Below are positions 5,350 through 14,135 of a DNA stretch of 64,000 nucleotides, piece by piece. How positions within the stretch are numbered: the stretch's first letter is position 1; each line of letters starts with the position of its first letter. The notes under the pieces were generated by a model. That model saw nothing but the letters and a program-made list of their open reading frames with translations, ran no database searches and was not told where the DNA came from. The DNA is from Pseudolysobacter antarcticus (GTDB lineage Bacteria; Pseudomonadota; Gammaproteobacteria; Xanthomonadales; Rhodanobacteraceae). The stretch covers positions 3,286,001 through 3,350,000 of the forward strand of contig NZ_CP035704.1 of assembly GCF_004168365.1 (NCBI RefSeq), read 5' to 3'. The position numbers were made by a program, and so were the translations under genes.

Positions 5350-6681
5350 TCACATCAATACTCGCGGTGCCAAGGTGCCGAACAGATCGTAGTCGTCGGC
5401 GCTATCGATATTCACGTCGACGAACTGACCGGGCTTGAGTTTGCCGCCGTCGGCAATGACGACATGACCATCAATTTCCGGCGCATCGGCAGTCGAACGA
5501 CCGATCGCGCCGTCCGCGTTGATCTCATCGATCAGCACGCGCTGCAGACTACCTATCTTGTATTGCAGGCGTTCGGCGCTGATCTCTGCCTGGGTTTCCA
5601 TAAAACGTTCGTAGCGCTCGAGCTTGACGGCATCGGGCACGGAATCCGGCAAATCATTCGCGCGCGCACCGGTAACTGGCGAAAACTGGAAACAGCCGAC
5701 GCGATCGAGTTGTGCCTCGCGCAGGAAATCCAGCAGCTCCTCGAATTCCGCTTCGGTCTCGCCTGGAAAACCGACGATAAACGTGCTGCGTATCGTCAGG
5801 TCCGGACACACCGCACGCCAGCCACGAATGCGTTCGAGATTTTTTTCGCCGTGCGCCGGGCGTTTCATGAGCTTGAGGATGCGCGGATTCGCATGCTGAA
5901 ACGGAATATCCAGATACGGCAGGATTTTCCCCGCCGCCATCAACGGCATCACTTCATCCACATGCGGATATGGATACACATAATGCAGCCGCACCCAGAC
6001 ATCGAGCTCGCTCAAACCCTGGCACAGCTCGGTCATGCGCGTGCGATATTGCTTGCCGCGCCATTCGCGTTCGGCGTAACGCATGTCCACGCCATAGGCG
6101 CTGGTGTCCTGCGAAATCACGAGTAATTCCTTGACGCCGCCCTTGACCAGTTTCTCGGCCTCGATCAGCACCTGGTCGACCGGTCGACTGACCAGATCGC
6201 CGCGCATCGAGGGGATGATGCAGAACGTGCAACGGTGATTACAGCCTTCGGAAATTTTCAAATACGCATAATGTTTCGGCGTGAGTTTGATACCAGCCGG
6301 CGGCGCGAGATCAAGAAACGGATCGTGTTTCGGCGGCAGCTGCGCATGCACCGCACGCATCACGCTGGCGTAATCGGCAGGACCGGAAATCGACAGCACC
6401 GCGGGGAATTTTTCGCGGATCATGTCGGCGCGCGCACCGAGACAGCCGGTGACCACGACCTTGCCGTTTTCAGCCATCGCCTCGCCGATCGCATCGAGCG
6501 ATTCTTCCACCGCCGAATCGATGAAACCGCAGGTGTTCACGACCACGACGTCGGCCGAGTTGTAAGTCGGCACGATCTCGTAACCCTCCACGCGCAACTG
6601 CGTGAGAATGCGTTCGGAATCCACCAACGCCTTGGGGCAACCGAGGCTGACAAAACCGACTTTGGGCTGGGCAAACGACAT
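5350..6681 (-). CDS. rimO: Ribosomal protein S12 methylthiotransferase RimO
   Basis: A 443-residue radical-SAM methylthiotransferase, the usual RimO length. The N-terminal UPF0004 domain holds the auxiliary-cluster cysteines C15 ([12 protein letters not shown]), C51 (NTCGFIDSA) and C80 (VTGCLGAR). The radical-SAM motif is C147-xxx-C151-xx-C154 in [17 protein letters not shown]. The C-terminal TRAM domain follows (QRVLIDEI to HVVIADGG and GQFVDVNI). [12 protein letters not shown] separates RimO from MiaB. It adds a methylthio group to an aspartate of ribosomal protein S12 using two Fe-S clusters and SAM. The start ATG at 6681 fits the family N-terminus ([11 protein letters not shown]). DUF3025 follows in the same direction. 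Confidence 0.96.
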
Positions 6682-6841: not shown

Positions 6842-7507
6842 ATGGGTCAACATCTGCAACTCAATACCAGCGGCATGCAATGCATCGGCGCGTATCGAGC
6901 CGACCCGGTCGGCACAGCGAAGGGCGGCATCGTCGTGATCCAGGAACTTTTCGGCGTCAACGCGCATATCCGCAGCGTGGTCGATCGCTTCGCTGCGCAC
7001 GGTTATGTCGCGATTGCGCCAGCGTTGTTCGATCGCATCGAAACCGGCGTCGAGCTCGGTTACGACGAAGCCGGCATGCAAAAAGGCAAGACGCTGGCGA
7101 CCGAACTCGGTATGGATCGGCCGCTCGAAGACATCGCCGCCGCCGCCGAGGCGATCGAATCAGCCGGGCATATCGGTGTCGTCGGGTATTGCTGGGGCGG
7201 CAGCGTGGCCTATCTTGCCGCTGCGCGCATTGGCCTACCCGCGGTGAGTTATTACGGCTCGCGCACCACCGCGTTTCTCGACGAAAAACCGACTGCGCCG
7301 TTGATGTTTCATTTCGGCGAGCGCGATCACAGCATCTCGGCCGAAGCGATTGCAAAACATCGCGCGGCGTTGCCGAACGCGGCTATCTACGTCTATCCCG
7401 CCGATCACGGTTTCAACTGCGATGCGCGCAGCGCCTACGATGCACCAAGCGCGGCACTCGCGTTGCAGCGCACGCTGGCATTTTTCGACGAGCAACTCGC
7501 TGACTGA
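6842..7507 (+). CDS. Dienelactone hydrolase family protein
   Basis: A 221-residue alpha/beta hydrolase of the dienelactone hydrolase family. The nucleophile is Cys117 in GYCWGGS, with Asp162 (ERDHSIS) and His189 (ADHGFNCD) completing the triad. Glu35 in QELFG is the residue that activates the cysteine in this family. The start ATG at 6842 has AAGGAA a few bases upstream. In degradation pathways these enzymes open dienelactones. Here there is no catechol pathway nearby, so the substrate is unknown and a general esterase or carboxymethylenebutenolidase-like role is the most that can be said. The gene is followed closely by a HIT protein and the 5-oxoproline cassette. Confidence 0.88.
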   Translation: MGQHLQLNTSGMQCIGAYRADPVGTAKGGIVVIQELFGVNAHIRSVVDRFAAHGYVAIAPALFDRIETGVELGYDEAGMQKGKTLATELGMDRPLEDIAAAAEAIESAGHIGVVGYCWGGSVAYLAAARIGLPAVSYYGSRTTAFLDEKPTAPLMFHFGERDHSISAEAIAKHRAALPNAAIYVYPADHGFNCDARSAYDAPSAALALQRTLAFFDEQLAD

Positions 7508-7517
7508 AAATACACAT

Positions 7518-7952
7518 ATGCAATCGACGATCGATAATCCTCGTTTCGTACTCGACCCGCGTCTGGCTGCGGATACGCACGTGCTCGGCGATTTCGCGCT
7601 GAGTCGGGTGTTGCTCATGAACGATGCGCGATTCCCGTGGCTGATCCTCGTGCCGCGCCAGCCACGATTACGCGAACTCGGCGATCTGGCCGCGGCGGAT
7701 CGGCACATCCTGCTCGATGAACTCGCGCACACGAGCGAGGCGCTGCAAAAACTGCATGCGCCGCACAAGCTCAATATCGCCGCACTCGGCAATGTGGTCG
7801 AGCAGTTGCATGTGCATGTGATCGCACGGCAAACCGATGATGCCGCGTGGCCGCGCCCGGTCTGGGGCGTCGGCAGCGCGCTCGCTTATGCCGACGCTGC
7901 GCGCGATGAATATATCGCTGCCTTGCGCGCAGCACTGAATCTGCACACATGA
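7518..7952 (+). CDS. HIT domain (histidine triad) protein
   Basis: A 144-residue HIT-superfamily protein, likely a nucleotide hydrolase or transferase acting on a nucleotide phosphoanhydride or ester. The triad region reads [16 protein letters not shown], where Q-L-H-V-H-V replaces the first histidine of the classical HxHxH motif, as in a common bacterial subgroup. Upstream the N-terminus shows [19 protein letters not shown], also typical. The ATG at 7518 is 10 bases after the stop of the hydrolase gene, so these two are probably co-transcribed. An in-frame extension to 7350 lies inside the hydrolase gene and is discarded. The substrate cannot be predicted. Confidence 0.85.
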
Positions 7953-7968: not shown

Positions 7969-8718
7969 ATGCCGGGATCGCAGCAATACACCGACTCAAA
8001 TGCGCCGTCGCTCGAAGCGCTCGGCGACAGCGCCTTGATTGTGCGATTTGGCGATCGTCTCGACGCGCGGATCAATGCGCAAGTGCATCGCGCGGCGGCG
8101 CTGCTGGCCGCGGCAAACCTCGCCGGCGTGCGCGAAATCGTGCCGGCGTATGCGAGTCTGACCGTGCACTACGATCCTGCGTTTTTTTCGCATGATGATT
8201 CTGCGCAGATCGATGTTTCGCCGTTTGCGCGAATCGGCGAACGCCTGCTCGTTTTGCTGCACGACTCTCGCGATGAAATTTTGCAGACCACACGCTTGAT
8301 CGAAATCCCGGTTTGCTACGGCGCGGAATTCGGCCCCGATCTGGCCGACGTCGCCGCTCACGCGGGCTTGTCCGAAGCGGAAGTCGTCGCGTTGCACAGC
8401 ACATCAACTTACCGCGTGGCGATGCTCGGTTTTGCGCCGGGTTTCCCGTACCTGTTCGGATTGAACGAAAGTTTGCATCTGCCGCGTCGCGCCACGCCGC
8501 GCACGCGCGTGCCCGCCGGAAGCGTTGCGATCGGCGGTCAGCAGACCGGCATTTATCCCGGCGAATTGCCTGGCGGTTGGCATCTGATCGGGCGCACACC
8601 ATTACATCTGTTCGATGCAGCTCGCGCCTCGCCCGCATTGCTCGCGCCTGCTGATGAGGTGCGCTTTATCGCCATCGACGCCGATGAATTCGCGCATCTG
8701 CAAACGAGCGCCACATGA
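7969..8718 (+). CDS. pxpB: 5-oxoprolinase subunit PxpB (KipI-like)
   Basis: A 249-residue protein with the KipI/AHS1 fold. The conserved block [17 protein letters not shown] is followed by [19 protein letters not shown] and the [18 protein letters not shown] motif, all diagnostic for PxpB. With PxpA and PxpC it forms the ATP-dependent 5-oxoprolinase that converts 5-oxo-L-proline to L-glutamate. The stop overlaps the ATG of pxpC by four bases (ATGA), which indicates coupled translation of equimolar subunits. In Bacillus the homologue KipI inhibits the sporulation kinase KinA, but no such kinase is in this window. The start ATG at 7969 is 16 bases after the HIT gene. Confidence 0.95.
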
Positions 8719-9710
8719 GCATCGAAGTGCTCAAGCCGGGCTTGCTGAGCACGCTGCAGGACGGCGGTCGCCACGGCTCGCAACATCTTGGCGTGGGTTG
8801 CGCTGGCGCGATGGATGCGAATGCATTGCGCCTCGCGAATTATCTGGTCGGAAATCAGGCCAATGCCGTGGCGCTGGAAATCACCTTGCAAGGCCCGCGT
8901 CTGCGTTTTGAAACGCCCGCACTGATCGCGCTGACCGGTGCAAATATCGAGGCATCGGTCGATCAATCTCCCGTGCCGCTGTGGCGACCGATCGTGCTGC
9001 GCGCGGGCAGCGAACTCGTGCTCGGTGGCATGCACAGCGGCGCGCGCAGTTATCTCGCTGTAGCCGGCGGTTTCGATGTGGCAAGCGTGCTCGGCAGCGG
9101 CAGCGCCGATATCAATGCGGCGCTGGGTTCGCGTTCTTTGCAAGTTGGCACACGCCTAGACTGCAAACCGCAGCATCGCGATCGCTACCAGCGATTGTGG
9201 AGCACGCTCGACGCAGGCGCGGAAAAATATCGCGCGGCATCGTGGTGGATCGATCCGGCGCCGTGGTTCGATGCCGATCCGAATATCGTCGTTCACACCC
9301 TGCGTGGCGCACATTTCGCGCAGCTCGATATCGAATCGCAGCGTGCTTTTTTTGCTTACGAGTTTCGCATCGGCAGCGAATCGAATCGCGTTGGTTATCG
9401 CTTGCAAGGTCCGAACCTGCAACTCGCCGCGCCGCTGGAATTGATCTCGGAAGGTCTCAGCATCGGCACCGTGCAACTGCCGCCATCGGGTAATGCGATC
9501 GTGCTGATGGCCGAGCATCCGACCACCGGCGGTTATCCGCGCATCGGCCACGTGGCGAGCGCCGATCTCGCGAAACTCGCACAGGCGCGGCCCGGCCAGA
9601 CGCTGCGTTTTGTCGAGATCGATCTGACCGAGGCGCAAAAGAGTTATCTTGCGCAGCAAATGGAAATCGAACGTCTGCGACTGGCGATTGCCGATCGCCT
9701 GCACGATTGA
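8715..9710 (+). CDS. pxpC: 5-oxoprolinase subunit PxpC (KipA-like)
   Basis: A 331-residue carboxyltransferase-fold protein (AHS2/biotin-dependent carboxyltransferase family). It opens with [19 protein letters not shown], the characteristic N-terminus. The blocks [29 protein letters not shown] and [16 protein letters not shown] follow, the last being the most conserved part of the family. It partners with PxpB and PxpA in ATP-dependent hydrolysis of 5-oxoproline to glutamate. The start overlaps pxpB by four bases, and pxpA starts 30 bases downstream. An older annotation style calls such genes urea carboxylase-related or allophanate hydrolase-like, but the presence of pxpA makes the oxoprolinase reading much stronger. 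Confidence 0.95.
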
Positions 9711-9740
9711 GCGACTGACAAAAACCCAAGGAGTACGCGC

Positions 9741-10517
9741 ATGCGCAAACCCCGCATCGACCTGAATTGCGACATGGGCGAATCCTACGGCGCGTGGCAG
9801 ATGGGCCAGGATGCGCAGGTGCTGCGGCATGTCACGTCGGCGAATATTGCCTGTGGCATGCACGCCGGCGATCCGCTGACGATGCAGCGCACCGTCGCCG
9901 CAGCGGTCGCGCAGGGGGTGGCGATCGGCGCGCATCCGTCGTTGCCTGATCTGCAAGGTTTCGGTCGGCGCGTGATGGCCATCACGGCGAACGAAGCGTA
10001 TGCATTAACGCTGTATCAAATCGGCGCGCTCAGCGCTTTTGCACATGCCGCGGCTAGTCGCTTGCACCACGTCAAACCGCACGGCGCGCTATACAACATG
10101 GCCGCGCGCGATACGACTTTGGCGCAGGCGATTGCGCAGGCCGTGCGTGATGCCGATGCGGCGCTGATCCTGGTCGGCCTGGCCGGTAGCGCATTGCCGG
10201 CGGCGGGTGCTGCGCTTGGTCTCAAGGTCGGACACGAGGCATTTGCCGATCGTCGTTACGAGGCTGATACATCACTCACACCACGTGGCGAAAAAGATGC
10301 CGTGATTCATGATATCGATGTGGCGATTGCGCAGGCGTTGAGCATCGTCACTCAAGCAAACGTGACCACGCGCGACGGCAAAATTCTGTCGCTGCAAGCC
10401 GATACGATTTGTGTGCATGGCGACCGTGCCGATGCTGCGATGTTTGCTGAACGCCTGCGCGCCGCGCTCGATCAGGCCGGTATCGGGGTACGCACACTCG
10501 ACGGAGCGGGCGCATGA
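9741..10517 (+). CDS. pxpA: 5-oxoprolinase subunit PxpA (LamB/YcsF family)
   Basis: A 258-residue LamB/YcsF-family protein. It begins RIDLNCDMGESYG, the family hallmark, and continues with SANIACGMHAGDPLTM, IGAHPSLPDLQGFGRR and HVKPHGALYN. EAFADRRYEADTSLTPRG is another conserved block. The histidines and aspartates in these motifs line the active site of this metal-dependent-deacetylase-like fold. AAGGAG lies about 7 bases before ATG 9741. The reaction is 5-oxo-L-proline + ATP + water to L-glutamate + ADP + phosphate. The stop codon overlaps the next gene (DUF969) by four bases, tying enzyme and putative transporter into one transcript. Confidence 0.96.
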   Translation: MRKPRIDLNCDMGESYGAWQMGQDAQVLRHVTSANIACGMHAGDPLTMQRTVAAAVAQGVAIGAHPSLPDLQGFGRRVMAITANEAYALTLYQIGALSAFAHAAASRLHHVKPHGALYNMAARDTTLAQAIAQAVRDADAALILVGLAGSALPAAGAALGLKVGHEAFADRRYEADTSLTPRGEKDAVIHDIDVAIAQALSIVTQANVTTRDGKILSLQADTICVHGDRADAAMFAERLRAALDQAGIGVRTLDGAGA

Positions 10518-11242
10518 ACTACTGGCCCTTGCTCGGCGTTGCCGTTGTCATCATCGGTTTTGTGCTGCGCCTGAATCCGGTGCTGGTGGTGGTTGGCGCC
10601 GGATTGGTCAGCGGTTTTGCCGCACACATCGCGCTGCCGGAATTGCTCACCTTGTTCGGAAAATCCTTTGTCGCGAATCGCGGCCTGCTGCTGATCGCAT
10701 TGACCTTGCCGGTGATCGGCGTGCTCGAGCGCGCCGGATTGAAGGAACACGCGCATGCCTGGATCGCGGGCTTTCGAAGCTTGAGCCTGAGCCGATTTCT
10801 GATCGCGTATCTCGCGGTGCGGCAGATCTTCAGCATGTTCGGCCTGACCCAGATCGCCGGTCACGCGCAGACCGTGCGCCCGCTGGTCGCACCGATGGCC
10901 GAAGCCGCCGCCGAACGTTCGGTCGGTGAGCTTTCCGACGACGAACAGCAACAGATCCGCGCGCTCGCTGCAGCCACCGACAATATCGGCCTATTCTTCG
11001 GCGAGGACGTATTCATCGCGCTCGGCGCCGTACTGTTGATCCAGGGCTTTTTTGCGGCCAACCAGATCGTGCTGGAGCCGCTGGATATCGCGATCTGGGC
11101 GGCGCCGACCGCGCTCGCGGCATTCGTGCTGCAGGCCTTGCGTCTGCAATTCTACGAACGCGGATTGCGCCGAAAACATCAGGCCGACAACGCGATTTCG
11201 GCGACCGAAAATGCCACTGTGAAAATCGATGCTGCGCATTGA
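10514..11242 (+). CDS. DUF969 membrane protein, putative 5-oxoproline permease component
   Basis: A 242-residue membrane protein with about six hydrophobic helices, including LLGVAVVIIGFVLRLNPVLV and LLLIALTLPVIGVLERAGLK. The segment YLAVRQIFSMFGLTQIAGHAQTVRPL is strongly conserved in DUF969. A further block is NIGLFFGEDVFIALGAVLLI. DUF969 and DUF979 genes typically occur together beside pxp genes, so they are thought to form a permease. Here the start overlaps pxpA by four bases and the end overlaps DUF979 by 14 bases. Transport of 5-oxoproline or a related compound is inferred from context only. Confidence 0.85.
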   Translation: MNYWPLLGVAVVIIGFVLRLNPVLVVVGAGLVSGFAAHIALPELLTLFGKSFVANRGLLLIALTLPVIGVLERAGLKEHAHAWIAGFRSLSLSRFLIAYLAVRQIFSMFGLTQIAGHAQTVRPLVAPMAEAAAERSVGELSDDEQQQIRALAAATDNIGLFFGEDVFIALGAVLLIQGFFAANQIVLEPLDIAIWAAPTALAAFVLQALRLQFYERGLRRKHQADNAISATENATVKIDAAH

Positions 11243-12218
11243 ATTCATCTACTGGATCGCCGGCCTGCTGTTTGCCGCTGCGGCGTGGCGCAAGTGGCGC
11301 AGCAACGAACCGCGCTGTGTGCTCGGTGCATTATTCTGGAGCATCATCGCGATCGCTTTTTTTGCCGGTGACAGTATCGAATCGGCATTAAAAGCCGGCA
11401 TCGTCTGGCCGGCACAAGCGATGGGCGGCGGCGTGATCCTGCTTGCCGCAATCGCTGGCAGCGGCGGTTTGCGCCGCAGCGCCGAGACGGATAAAAATGC
11501 CGACGTGAGCGAGCAGCGTAGCGAGTCCGCAAAAATACTCGGCAACCGTTTGTTCGTGCCGGCCTTGCTGATTCCGCTGCTGACCTTATTGCTGGTGTTG
11601 TTCGGCCAAACATTGCGCTGGGGCGATTGGGCGCTGTTCGATGCGCGACAATTCACGTTGCTGGCGTTGGGCATCGCGTGTCTGATCGCACTCGCGGTTG
11701 GCCTGCGAATGACGCGTTCGCCCGCAAGCACCGCATTGACCGAAGGCACGCGCCTGCTCGATCTGCTCGGCTGGGCGGCGGTGTTGCCGATGGTGCTGGC
11801 GAGCCTTGGCGGCGTGTTTATCGCGGCGGGTGTCGGCGACAATATCGCTGCCTTGGTCGCGTATGTCGTGCCGGTGGATATGCGCCTCGCCTGCGTGCTT
11901 GCGTACGCGCTTGGCATGGTGTTTTTCACGCTGGTGATGGGCAATGCGTTCGCCGCGTTTCCGGTGATGACCGCGGGCATCGGCCTGCCGCTGCTGGTAC
12001 TGCAACATCACGCCAGTCCGGCGATCATCGGCGCGCTCGGCATGCTGTGCGGTTATTGCGGCACCCTGCTCACGCCGATGGCGGCGAACTACAACGTGGT
12101 GCCGGCGGTGCTGCTGGAATTGAAGGATCGCAACGGCGTGATTCTCGCGCAAGTTCCCACCGCGTTGTCGCTGCTGCTGGTCAATATCATCCTGATGTAT
12201 CTGCTGGCTTTCCGATGA
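11229..12218 (+). CDS. DUF979 membrane protein, putative 5-oxoproline permease component
   Basis: A 329-residue polytopic membrane protein with eight or nine predicted hydrophobic helices. The C-terminal half is the conserved part: GVFIAAGVGDNIAALVAYVV, GNAFAAFPVMTAGIGLPLLV and GYCGTLLTPMAANYNVVPA. The last motif, with the G-T-L-x-T-P-M-A-A-N segment, resembles re-entrant loops of ion-coupled carboxylate transporters, an inference rather than a family fact. It follows DUF969 with a 14-base overlap and precedes pcp with a four-base overlap. A two-protein permease with DUF969 that feeds the PxpABC enzyme is the most economical reading. Confidence 0.85.
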   Translation: MLRIEFIYWIAGLLFAAAAWRKWRSNEPRCVLGALFWSIIAIAFFAGDSIESALKAGIVWPAQAMGGGVILLAAIAGSGGLRRSAETDKNADVSEQRSESAKILGNRLFVPALLIPLLTLLLVLFGQTLRWGDWALFDARQFTLLALGIACLIALAVGLRMTRSPASTALTEGTRLLDLLGWAAVLPMVLASLGGVFIAAGVGDNIAALVAYVVPVDMRLACVLAYALGMVFFTLVMGNAFAAFPVMTAGIGLPLLVLQHHASPAIIGALGMLCGYCGTLLTPMAANYNVVPAVLLELKDRNGVILAQVPTALSLLLVNIILMYLLAFR

Positions 12219-12871
12219 AAAAGCCGCGCATCGCGCTTATTACCGGCTTCGCGCCTTTCGCCGACGATGCGCTTAATCCCTCAGCGGAAATCGCGCGCAA
12301 ACTGCACGGTGAAATTATTGATGGCATGCGTATCGTCGGCGCGGTGCTGCCGACCGAATTCGCACGCGCGCCGAGCTCGCTCGAAACGTTGATCGAACAG
12401 CATCATCCGGCGCTTTTGGTAGCGCTCGGGCTGGCTGGCGGTCGCAGCGAAATCTCGCTGGAAAGAGTCGCGATCAATCTGATCGATGCGCGCATCGCTG
12501 ACAATGCGGGTGCGCAACCGATCGACGAAGCGGTGATCGCGGATGCGCCGACCGCGTATTTTTCCAGCCTGCCGCTGAAAGCGCTGCTGCTGCATTTGCG
12601 CGGACTCGACATCCCAGTTGCTATCTCGTACAGCGCCGGCACCTTCGTTTGCAATCAGGTGTTTTTCGGTCTCGCGCATTTGCTGGCAACGCGTTATCCA
12701 GCGGTGATCGGCGGTTTTGTGCATGTACCGTATCTGCCGCAGCAAGCGCTGCTGCACAACGACGCTGCGAGCATGGCGCTGGATATGCAGATTGCCGCGA
12801 TTCGCGCGATCGTCGAAACCGCATTGAAACCAAACATCGCGCGCATTATCAGCGGCGGCGCCACACACTAA
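12215..12871 (+). CDS. pcp: Pyroglutamyl-peptidase I
   Basis: A 218-residue cysteine peptidase of family C15 that removes N-terminal pyroglutamate from peptides. The catalytic triad is visible: Glu83 in RSEISLERVAIN, Cys146 in SAGTFVCNQVFF and His170 in GGFVHVPYLP. Spacing and length match characterised Pcp enzymes (about 215 residues). ATG 12215 overlaps the DUF979 stop (ATGA). This makes pcp the last gene of the pxpBCA-DUF969-DUF979 cassette: peptides give free 5-oxoproline, which PxpABC opens to glutamate. No signal peptide is present, so the enzyme is cytoplasmic and would act on imported peptides or on protein turnover products. Confidence 0.95.
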   Translation: MKKPRIALITGFAPFADDALNPSAEIARKLHGEIIDGMRIVGAVLPTEFARAPSSLETLIEQHHPALLVALGLAGGRSEISLERVAINLIDARIADNAGAQPIDEAVIADAPTAYFSSLPLKALLLHLRGLDIPVAISYSAGTFVCNQVFFGLAHLLATRYPAVIGGFVHVPYLPQQALLHNDAASMALDMQIAAIRAIVETALKPNIARIISGGATH

Positions 12872-12989: not shown

Positions 12990-14135
12990 ATGAATTCTGT
13001 GCTGATCGAAACGCGTGTGATGAAATCCGATATGGCGAAGTCCAATCAGAACAAATTCGATCCGATTGAAAGTGCTTCGGCTGTCTCGACATTTCGCAGC
13101 GATGACGAGCGTTGGACGGCGGTAGTCGAACGCGATTCCGCCGCCGAGGGTCTGTTCTTTTATTCGGTGCGCACGACCGGGGTGTATTGCCGTCCATCGT
13201 GTGCGGCGCGTTTACCAAGACGCGAAAACGTGCGCTTTCATGCGAGTTGCGCGGCGGCAGAAACTGCCGGTTTTCGCGCCTGCAAACGTTGCCGTCCGAA
13301 TGAAGCCGCGCTCGCTGAGCGCCAGGCCGCCGCGGTCACGCAAGCATGTCGGCTGATCGAAACCGCAGCAGAAATGCCCGCACTCGATACACTCGCGACT
13401 GCCGTCGGCATGAGTCGTTTTCATTTCCACCGCGTGTTCAAAAGCTTCACCGGACTCACGCCTAAAACCTATGCAGTAGCGCATCGCAGCGATCGTATCC
13501 GCGAACAACTCGCACGCAACAGCAAGGTCACCGATGCGATTTACGACGCCGGCTATAACTCGAGCGGGCGCTTTTACGCGACCTCGGCGAAAGTGCTCGG
13601 CATGACCCCGCGCGACTTCCGCGCCGGTGGCGATGGTGCCTCGATCCGCTTCGCCGCAGGTGAATGTTCATTGGGTTCGATCCTCGTGGCGGCGAGTGAA
13701 AAAGGCATCTGCGCGATCCTGCTCGGTGATGATCCCGGCATCCTCGTGCATGATCTGCAAGACCGTTTTGCGCAAGCCACGTTGCTCGGCGGCGATGCCG
13801 AGTTCGAGCAATGGATGGCCAAGGTGGTGGGTTTTGTCGACGCACCGCAATTGGGTTTGGACTTGCCGCTGGATGTGCGCGGCACGGCGTTTCAGCAGCG
13901 CGTGTGGCAAGCACTGGGCGAAATCCCGATCGGCTCGACTGCCAGTTATGCGCAGATCGCAAAACGCATCGGCTCGCCCAAGGCGGTGCGCGCGGTCGCG
14001 CAGGCATGTGCCGCCAATCGGCTCGCCGTGGCGATTCCGTGTCATCGTGTGGTGCGCAACGACGGTGCGTTATCCGGCTATCGTTGGGGCGTGGAACGCA
14101 AGCGCGCGTTGCTCGAATACGAGGCCGCCTTGTGA
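12990..14135 (+). CDS. ada: Ada: methylphosphotriester/O6-methylguanine repair protein and AraC-type activator
   Basis: A 381-residue full-length Ada. The N-terminal zinc domain has the four cysteines C67, C71 (YCRPSCAAR) and C98, C101 (ACKRCRP), which accept a methyl group from DNA phosphotriesters. A central AraC-type helix-turn-helix follows (FHFHRVFKSFTGLTPKTYA and GRFYATSAKVLGMTPRDFR). The C-terminal alkyltransferase domain has IPCHRV with acceptor Cys351. ATG 12990 is chosen because AGAGGAG sits about 8 bases upstream. The first 35 residues before the zinc domain are longer than in E. coli Ada. The next gene overlaps by four bases, and an Ada-box-like site lies about 90 bases upstream. 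Confidence 0.96.
   Translation: MNSVLIETRVMKSDMAKSNQNKFDPIESASAVSTFRSDDERWTAVVERDSAAEGLFFYSVRTTGVYCRPSCAARLPRRENVRFHASCAAAETAGFRACKRCRPNEAALAERQAAAVTQACRLIETAAEMPALDTLATAVGMSRFHFHRVFKSFTGLTPKTYAVAHRSDRIREQLARNSKVTDAIYDAGYNSSGRFYATSAKVLGMTPRDFRAGGDGASIRFAAGECSLGSILVAASEKGICAILLGDDPGILVHDLQDRFAQATLLGGDAEFEQWMAKVVGFVDAPQLGLDLPLDVRGTAFQQRVWQALGEIPIGSTASYAQIAKRIGSPKAVRAVAQACAANRLAVAIPCHRVVRNDGALSGYRWGVERKRALLEYEAAL

Follow-up and report, generated by a model that had tools for sequence, protein, structure and literature searches.

A window of 64,000 nucleotides from the genome of Pseudolysobacter antarcticus (assembly GCF_004168365.1, contig NZ_CP035704.1, positions 3,286,001 to 3,350,000) contains six genes on its forward strand, pxpB-pxpC-pxpA-DUF969-DUF979-pcp, at window positions 7969-12871. 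Our data suggest that this operon is probably a 5-oxoproline (pyroglutamate) salvage unit, in which DUF969 and DUF979 form one secondary carrier importing free 5-oxoproline while pyroglutamyl peptidase (Pcp) and the 5-oxoprolinase PxpABC lead onward to glutamate. DUF969 and DUF979 would each provide half of an ion-transporter-superfamily fold and would together bring free 5-oxoproline into the cell. Pcp would release further 5-oxoproline intracellularly from pyroglutamyl peptides entering by another route, and PxpABC would then open the 5-oxoproline ring with ATP to yield glutamate, a reaction published for PxpABC elsewhere and expected here by analogy. Uptake of 5-oxoproline, its release from peptides and its conversion to glutamate are the most likely functions of the cluster, and they are established in outline. 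For the carrier in this organism, 5-oxoproline is the presumed substrate and inward the presumed direction, and the pairing of its two halves, published as a prediction, is presumed as well.

The six genes were identified as open reading frames whose products all score above the cut-off of their family in profile searches. The first three encode subunits B, C and A of 5-oxoprolinase: pxpB (7969..8718, 249 residues; PF02682 256 bits, TIGR00370 218.6 bits with a cut-off of 145.55), pxpC (8715..9710, 331 residues; PF02626 283.4 bits, TIGR00724 above cut-off) and pxpA (9741..10517, 258 residues; PF03746 326.7 bits, NF003814 above cut-off). By these profiles all three subunits are present, although PxpC, at 247.3 bits, does not reach the cut-off of 500 set for the narrower model NF045499. 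Adjacent to one another follow DUF969 (10514..11242, 242 residues; PF06149 272.3 bits), the proposed first half of the 5-oxoproline carrier, and DUF979 (11229..12218, 329 residues; PF06166 354.7 bits), the proposed second half. The last gene, pcp (12215..12871, 218 residues; PF01470 231.8 bits, TIGR00504 above cut-off), encodes pyroglutamyl peptidase I; searched against solved structures, its product finds Pcp relatives with E values up to 2.9e-57. The translation contains the stretches SLERVAIN (from residue 81), GTFVCNQ (from 142) and GFVHVPY (from 167), in which we take the active-site Glu, Cys and His to be placed. The junctions from pxpB to pcp measure -4, +30, -4, -14 and -4 bases, the 30-base gap between pxpC and pxpA being the only one of the five without an overlap. 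The first-pass annotation had described a complete head-to-tail set with most junctions overlapping by 4-14 bases and pcp at its end, and the open frames and profiles bear it out. In the host genome, profile searches gave a single match each for DUF969, DUF979, PxpA and Pcp and none for DUF2891, a family that takes the place of pcp at other loci. The nearest relatives of the DUF979 protein come from Tahibacter, Dokdonella and other Lysobacterales.

The arrangement was compared across 118 related loci, comprising 26 sampled from Pseudomonadota, 80 named loci and 12 from Bacillota; from 590 confirmed loci the best 80 made up the named set, which for this reason leans towards near relatives. In 117 of the 118, no more than 300 bases separate DUF969 from DUF979 (26/26 Pseudomonadota, 79/80 named and 12/12 Bacillota), and at the sole exception (L101) the contig begins inside the cassette. 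A check of gene neighbourhoods, as the first-pass annotation had proposed, finds pxp genes and pcp beside the pair in 49 of the 80 named loci. Such constancy of the pair and such recurrence of its partners show that the arrangement is not due to chance. In clusters of this kind, pcp was reportedly also noted by Niehaus and colleagues in 2017.

Genome-wide counts tie the pair to 5-oxoprolinases. Among 249 genomes drawn evenly from Pseudomonadota, 27 encode DUF979 above the cut-off, and 16 of these also encode PxpA, compared with 78 of the other 222 (Fisher p 0.02; our Fisher tests on genome counts ignore relatedness). Weak DUF979 matches that stayed under the cut-off were dropped, in this survey (G117) and in that of Bacillota described below (G351), as were additional weak ones in G124 and G180. 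According to the first-pass annotation, frequent DUF969/DUF979 pairs in genomes without pxp genes would speak against its idea. Taken literally, such pairs are frequent: PxpA is absent from 11 of the 27 Pseudomonadota genomes with DUF979 and from 7 of 13 in Bacillota. In Pseudomonadota, 10 of the 11 possess another 5-oxoprolinase-type enzyme, a fused hydantoinase A/B of about 1200 residues (at least 51% identity), but none of the seven Bacillota does, and there the finding counts against it. In a control set of genomes without DUF979 and PxpA, the fused enzyme (at least 48% identity) occurs in 15 of 70 (Fisher p 1.5e-5); these were the lowest-numbered 70 of 144 rather than a random draw, and the query was taken from G239, which is also counted among the 10 positives. 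Matches in two pieces on one contig were scored as full length (G183 among the positives, G051 and G071 among the controls), and in G257 the match lies in two pieces on two contigs. Altogether, 26 of the 27 genomes own either PxpA (16) or the full-length fused enzyme (10). In five sampled loci the fused gene is located directly 5' of DUF969, and each of the three chains scanned unites both hydantoinase domains, A and B. Nineteen of the 80 named loci contain no 5-oxoprolinase-type gene; for the 15 of these with long flanks the whole genome was searched, and all 15 encode one elsewhere (9 PxpA, 6 the fused enzyme).

A second line of evidence comes from the outer membrane. Directly 5' of DUF969, three Pseudomonas loci (L146, L149 and L152) carry a gene for an OprD-family porin. 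The best solved match of the L146 and L152 porins is the pyroglutamate porin OpdO (592.5 and 611.2 bits), which exceeds the next different porin by 78 and 90 bits, respectively, and the L149 porin is 85% identical to that of L146. Because the three loci are close relatives, we count them as one event. In P. aeruginosa, the locus numbers of OpdO neighbour those of pxp-type genes and an MFS carrier, according to PMC6327441. The OpdO-like porin beside DUF969 supports uptake of free 5-oxoproline, and the fused 5-oxoprolinase-type enzyme and the porin both point to free 5-oxoproline as the substrate.

These observations also bear on whether the pair imports pyroglutamyl peptides, which Pcp would then cut. 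The first-pass annotation had left open a 5-oxoproline or a pyroglutamyl-peptide permease; our results support the former and give no support to the latter. Neither Pcp nor DUF2891 is encoded in five of the named genomes that have the pair, four of them from Pseudomonas and one from Paenibacillus (G249), and in three of the Pseudomonas loci concerned the OpdO-like porin stands beside the pair. The fold group of the DUF979 model includes carriers of small anions. The release of 5-oxoproline from peptides needs a separate peptide importer, and the host genome has matches to the POT family of peptide carriers in four places. Peptide import by the pair therefore appears very improbable, despite the fact that Pcp is its most constant partner in Bacillota. 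Still harder to sustain is a membrane complex with some other job that became linked to 5-oxoproline by operon drift. Such drift would fit the three named loci (L142, L165 and L175) in which none of the expected partners lies directly beside DUF969/DUF979, but two unrelated types of 5-oxoprolinase, Pcp and an outer-membrane porin of the pyroglutamate type all recur next to the pair.

Import of 5-oxoproline by a two-part carrier is also consistent with the predicted fold. The AlphaFold model of the window's DUF979, computed with 40 relatives, has a mean predicted local distance difference test score (pLDDT) of 87.1 and a predicted template modelling score (pTM) of 0.79, with residues 286-296 below a pLDDT of 50. 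Its closest solved structure is Pho90 (Z 10.4, root-mean-square deviation 2.8 over 144 residues), and further matches include a bacterial dicarboxylate symporter (Z 9.8), NaS1, NaDC3, AtDiT1, INDY, YdaH and membrane parts of TRAP transporters. Eighteen of the top 20 matches (Z 6.1-10.4) are, as we understand the superfamily, ion-transporter-superfamily proteins, a fold group of carriers for small anions. The strongly conserved stretches GNxFAAFP and TPxAAN fall within residues 181-329. Sequence searches of DUF969 and DUF979 against solved structures gave no convincing relative, with one match each at E 0.88 and 0.95.

The first-pass annotation had called DUF969 and DUF979 proteins without known function, a description that is out of date (PMC11467057, PMC6904757, PMC12795558). 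In PMC11467057, DUF979 is assigned to the ion transporter superfamily as a single-repeat protein, half of a carrier with DUF969 as its partner. The same paper describes a structural similarity of DUF969 and DUF979 and a predicted pairing of the two from Clostridioides difficile with an interface predicted template modelling score (ipTM) of about 0.9, and it refers to Niehaus et al. 2017 for operons shared with 5-oxoproline genes and for the suggestion of a role in transport. A metabolic model (PMC6904757) uses DUF969/DUF979 as its pyroglutamate carrier.

Several observations weigh against uptake of 5-oxoproline by the pair, or against individual steps of the argument for it. The association of DUF979 with PxpA alone is modest. 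The nearest solved relative of the fused hydantoinase A/B is an N-methylhydantoinase, the next solved match, a chain labelled 5-oxoprolinase (6yra), reaching half the score; NCBIfam models were matched below cut-off only, and the enzyme is putatively termed 5-oxoprolinase-type by its architecture only. One genome of the window's class (G011) has DUF969-DUF979-pcp and encodes neither PxpA nor the fused enzyme. The Z scores of the DUF979 model remain below 13, the figure named for helical proteins in the tool's note, an unrelated entry (9a59) ranks sixth among the matches (Z 8.7), and the matches cover mainly residues 181-329. A profile comparison of DUF969 with DUF979, made from thin alignments, found no similarity. 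A Campylobacter jejuni cj0552-cj0554 mutant lost growth on 5-oxoproline as nitrogen source, a result given as preliminary in PMC12795558, but since DUF2891 was removed too, it is no proof for the carrier alone. In two Bacillota loci (L198 and L201, from genomes with PxpA), an Nramp-family gene near the cassette shares about 39% identity with the one next to pxpABC in L087. Similar proteins have been reported as 5-oxoproline importers, so that DUF969/DUF979 would be redundant there; the L087 gene, however, passes a model for metal transporters as well. In Bacillus subtilis, deletion of ycsG is reported to abolish growth with 5-oxoproline as the nitrogen source.

The remaining difficulty lies in Bacillota. 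The survey of this phylum, to which Paenibacillus phytorum (L105) belongs, also covered 249 genomes, 13 of which encode DUF979 above the cut-off. PxpA is present in six of the 13, and the other seven lack both PxpA and the fused enzyme (0/7), which again weighs against import. Pcp, on the other hand, is found in 12 of the 13 and adjoins DUF979 in 11 of the 12 fetched loci; DUF2891 is found in none of the 13. Because this constant partner makes 5-oxoproline, the lack of pxp genes leaves 5-oxoproline unrefuted as the substrate. Its import as food, however, is not explained in these seven genomes, as none has another 5-oxoprolinase-type enzyme. DUF969/DUF979 might instead work outwards, or both ways, venting 5-oxoproline made by Pcp in the cytoplasm where no 5-oxoprolinase exists. 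One Bacillota locus from a genome without either 5-oxoprolinase (L194) carries a GGACT-family (gamma-glutamyl cyclotransferase-like) gene behind pcp (L194:5899-6294), whose product may be a further source of 5-oxoproline; no relative of this gene was found in the other loci searched. The G011 locus would be explained in the same way, and the organism of the window could balance uptake and loss. In contrast, the OpdO-like porins beside DUF969 and the growth defect of the Campylobacter mutant point inwards, and these Bacillota may open the ring with a different enzyme. We therefore consider export possible in Bacillota, and outward or two-way transport as an account of the pair rather unlikely.

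The slot behind DUF979 is variable: it contains pcp or, at other loci, a gene for DUF2891, a family whose six-hairpin barrel structure has been solved, and the two hardly ever occur together. Of the 26 sampled loci, 13 have pcp close to DUF979 and 13 have DUF2891 there; L046 contains both and L052 contains neither. The 27 Pseudomonadota genomes with DUF979 show a strong Pcp match in 14 and DUF2891 in 15 (both in two, neither in none), and the other 222 genomes show them in 6 and 12, respectively. Of 41 genomes with a C15 match, 21 have weak ones only (E > 1e-30) and are omitted from these Pcp counts; none of the 21 has DUF979. Among the 80 named loci, 55 have pcp, 14 have DUF2891, none has both and 11 have neither; in the named genomes of the DUF2891 kind, Pcp is found in 0 of 8. 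A tree built from 119 DUF979 proteins, in which one row is doubled because L040 and L168 share one genome, requires at least two switches to account for the distribution of pcp and DUF2891. One DUF2891 group is deep and consists mostly of Alphaproteobacteria, with Paraburkholderia and Glaciimonas, and the other is nested and includes Herbaspirillum. The exclusion is real, but few events stand behind it, and since two switches suffice it is weaker than the counts imply.

DUF2891 may stand in for Pcp, a pattern against which the five genomes with neither gene speak. Caulobacter vibrioides, used as a control genome, gave matches to both DUF969 and DUF2891. Away from DUF979, DUF2891 has a cassette-type context in 2 of 12 sampled genomes (L087 and L094), and BLAST found no cassette gene nearby in the remaining 10. 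In L094 (3162-7945), a fused hydantoinase A/B gene overlaps the DUF2891 gene by 4 bases, and in L087 (6746-11523) a DUF2891 gene with a lipoprotein-like start, the Nramp-family gene and pxpA-pxpB-pxpC stand in a row; both genomes lack DUF979. By eye, a signal peptide begins the L087 copy and several lone copies and is absent from the cassette copies printed. A DUF2891 model (mean pLDDT 88.7) matches the solved Cj0554 with Z 43.1 and sugar-active six-hairpin enzymes with Z up to 15.9, and other fold matches include some complement chains. No peptidase is among the listed matches, with which a peptidase role is still compatible, and the accessible parts of the literature mentioning DUF2891 give no function for it. 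We tentatively propose, as an idea that may well fail, that DUF2891 is an unrelated enzyme supplying 5-oxoproline in place of Pcp, for example from pyroglutamyl or gamma-glutamyl compounds, and that the carrier runs outward in those Bacillota that have Pcp and no 5-oxoprolinase.

Upstream of pxpB on the same strand lie two genes beyond those named in the first-pass annotation: a dienelactone-hydrolase-family gene (6842..7507; PF01738 133.4 bits), perhaps the first of the same run, is followed after 10 bases by a HIT-family gene (7518..7952; PF01230 55.7 bits), which is separated from pxpB by 16 bases. Relatives of the two occur in 17 and 18 of the 118 related loci, respectively, and those of the loci that carry a genus name come from Lysobacterales. 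Downstream, a gene for an Ada-type DNA repair regulator (12990-14135) begins 118 bases past pcp; as a relative is found in just one of the 118 loci (L154, far from DUF969/DUF979), we place it outside the cassette. Between positions 6600 and 13200, neither promoter-like patterns (2, compared with 2.0 in shuffled sequences) nor terminator-like patterns (5, compared with 8.1) are in excess. Five other loci (L046, L049, L052, L054 and L057) encode mutually related small proteins close to the cassette; the two copies scanned (L052 and L057) are MarR-like winged-helix proteins, which makes this protein a candidate regulator.

The cluster cleanly illustrates a widespread salvage route for pyroglutamate, which forms spontaneously from glutamine and glutamate. 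Both the gene cluster and the proposed DUF969/DUF979 transporter are already known, and the window holds a good copy of them; with the carrier proposal and the Campylobacter mutant in print, the main idea of the first-pass annotation is not new. Literature searches on pyroglutamate export, on pyroglutamyl peptidase with transporters and on pcp clusters listed no further functional report on DUF969/DUF979. Our analysis adds the fused enzyme in place of PxpABC, a porin resembling OpdO, a candidate substitute for Pcp in DUF2891, and a set of Bacillota for which the searches yielded no 5-oxoprolinase. The carrier proposal gains support from two unrelated types of ring-opening enzyme and a pyroglutamate-type porin beside the pair, and the direction of transport is called into question for bacteria where searches turned up no 5-oxoprolinase. 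The DUF2891 lead is the most useful part of the results; it gives a family with a known structure a testable substrate class.

The clusters of pxpABC, pcp and DUF969/DUF979 attributed to Niehaus et al. 2017 in PMC11467057 and PMC6904757 comprise the same genes, and an identical role was proposed for DUF969/DUF979. There is no essential difference between these and the present copy, which has two extra genes upstream and belongs to Lysobacterales by its nearest DUF979 relatives. Campylobacter jejuni cj0552-cj0554 contains the same transporter pair, according to PMC12795558, but forms a three-gene operon without pxp in which DUF2891 replaces pcp. The pxpTABC operon of Corynebacterium glutamicum likewise combines a carrier with PxpABC for 5-oxoproline use, but its carrier, as described in PMC13274462, is a single Nramp/APC-type protein from a family other than DUF969/DUF979. 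In its fold, the DUF979 model is like the ion transporter superfamily, including INDY, Pho90 and the TRAP membrane parts. Whereas the known members hold both repeats in one chain, as stated in PMC11467057, here the two halves are encoded by separate genes.

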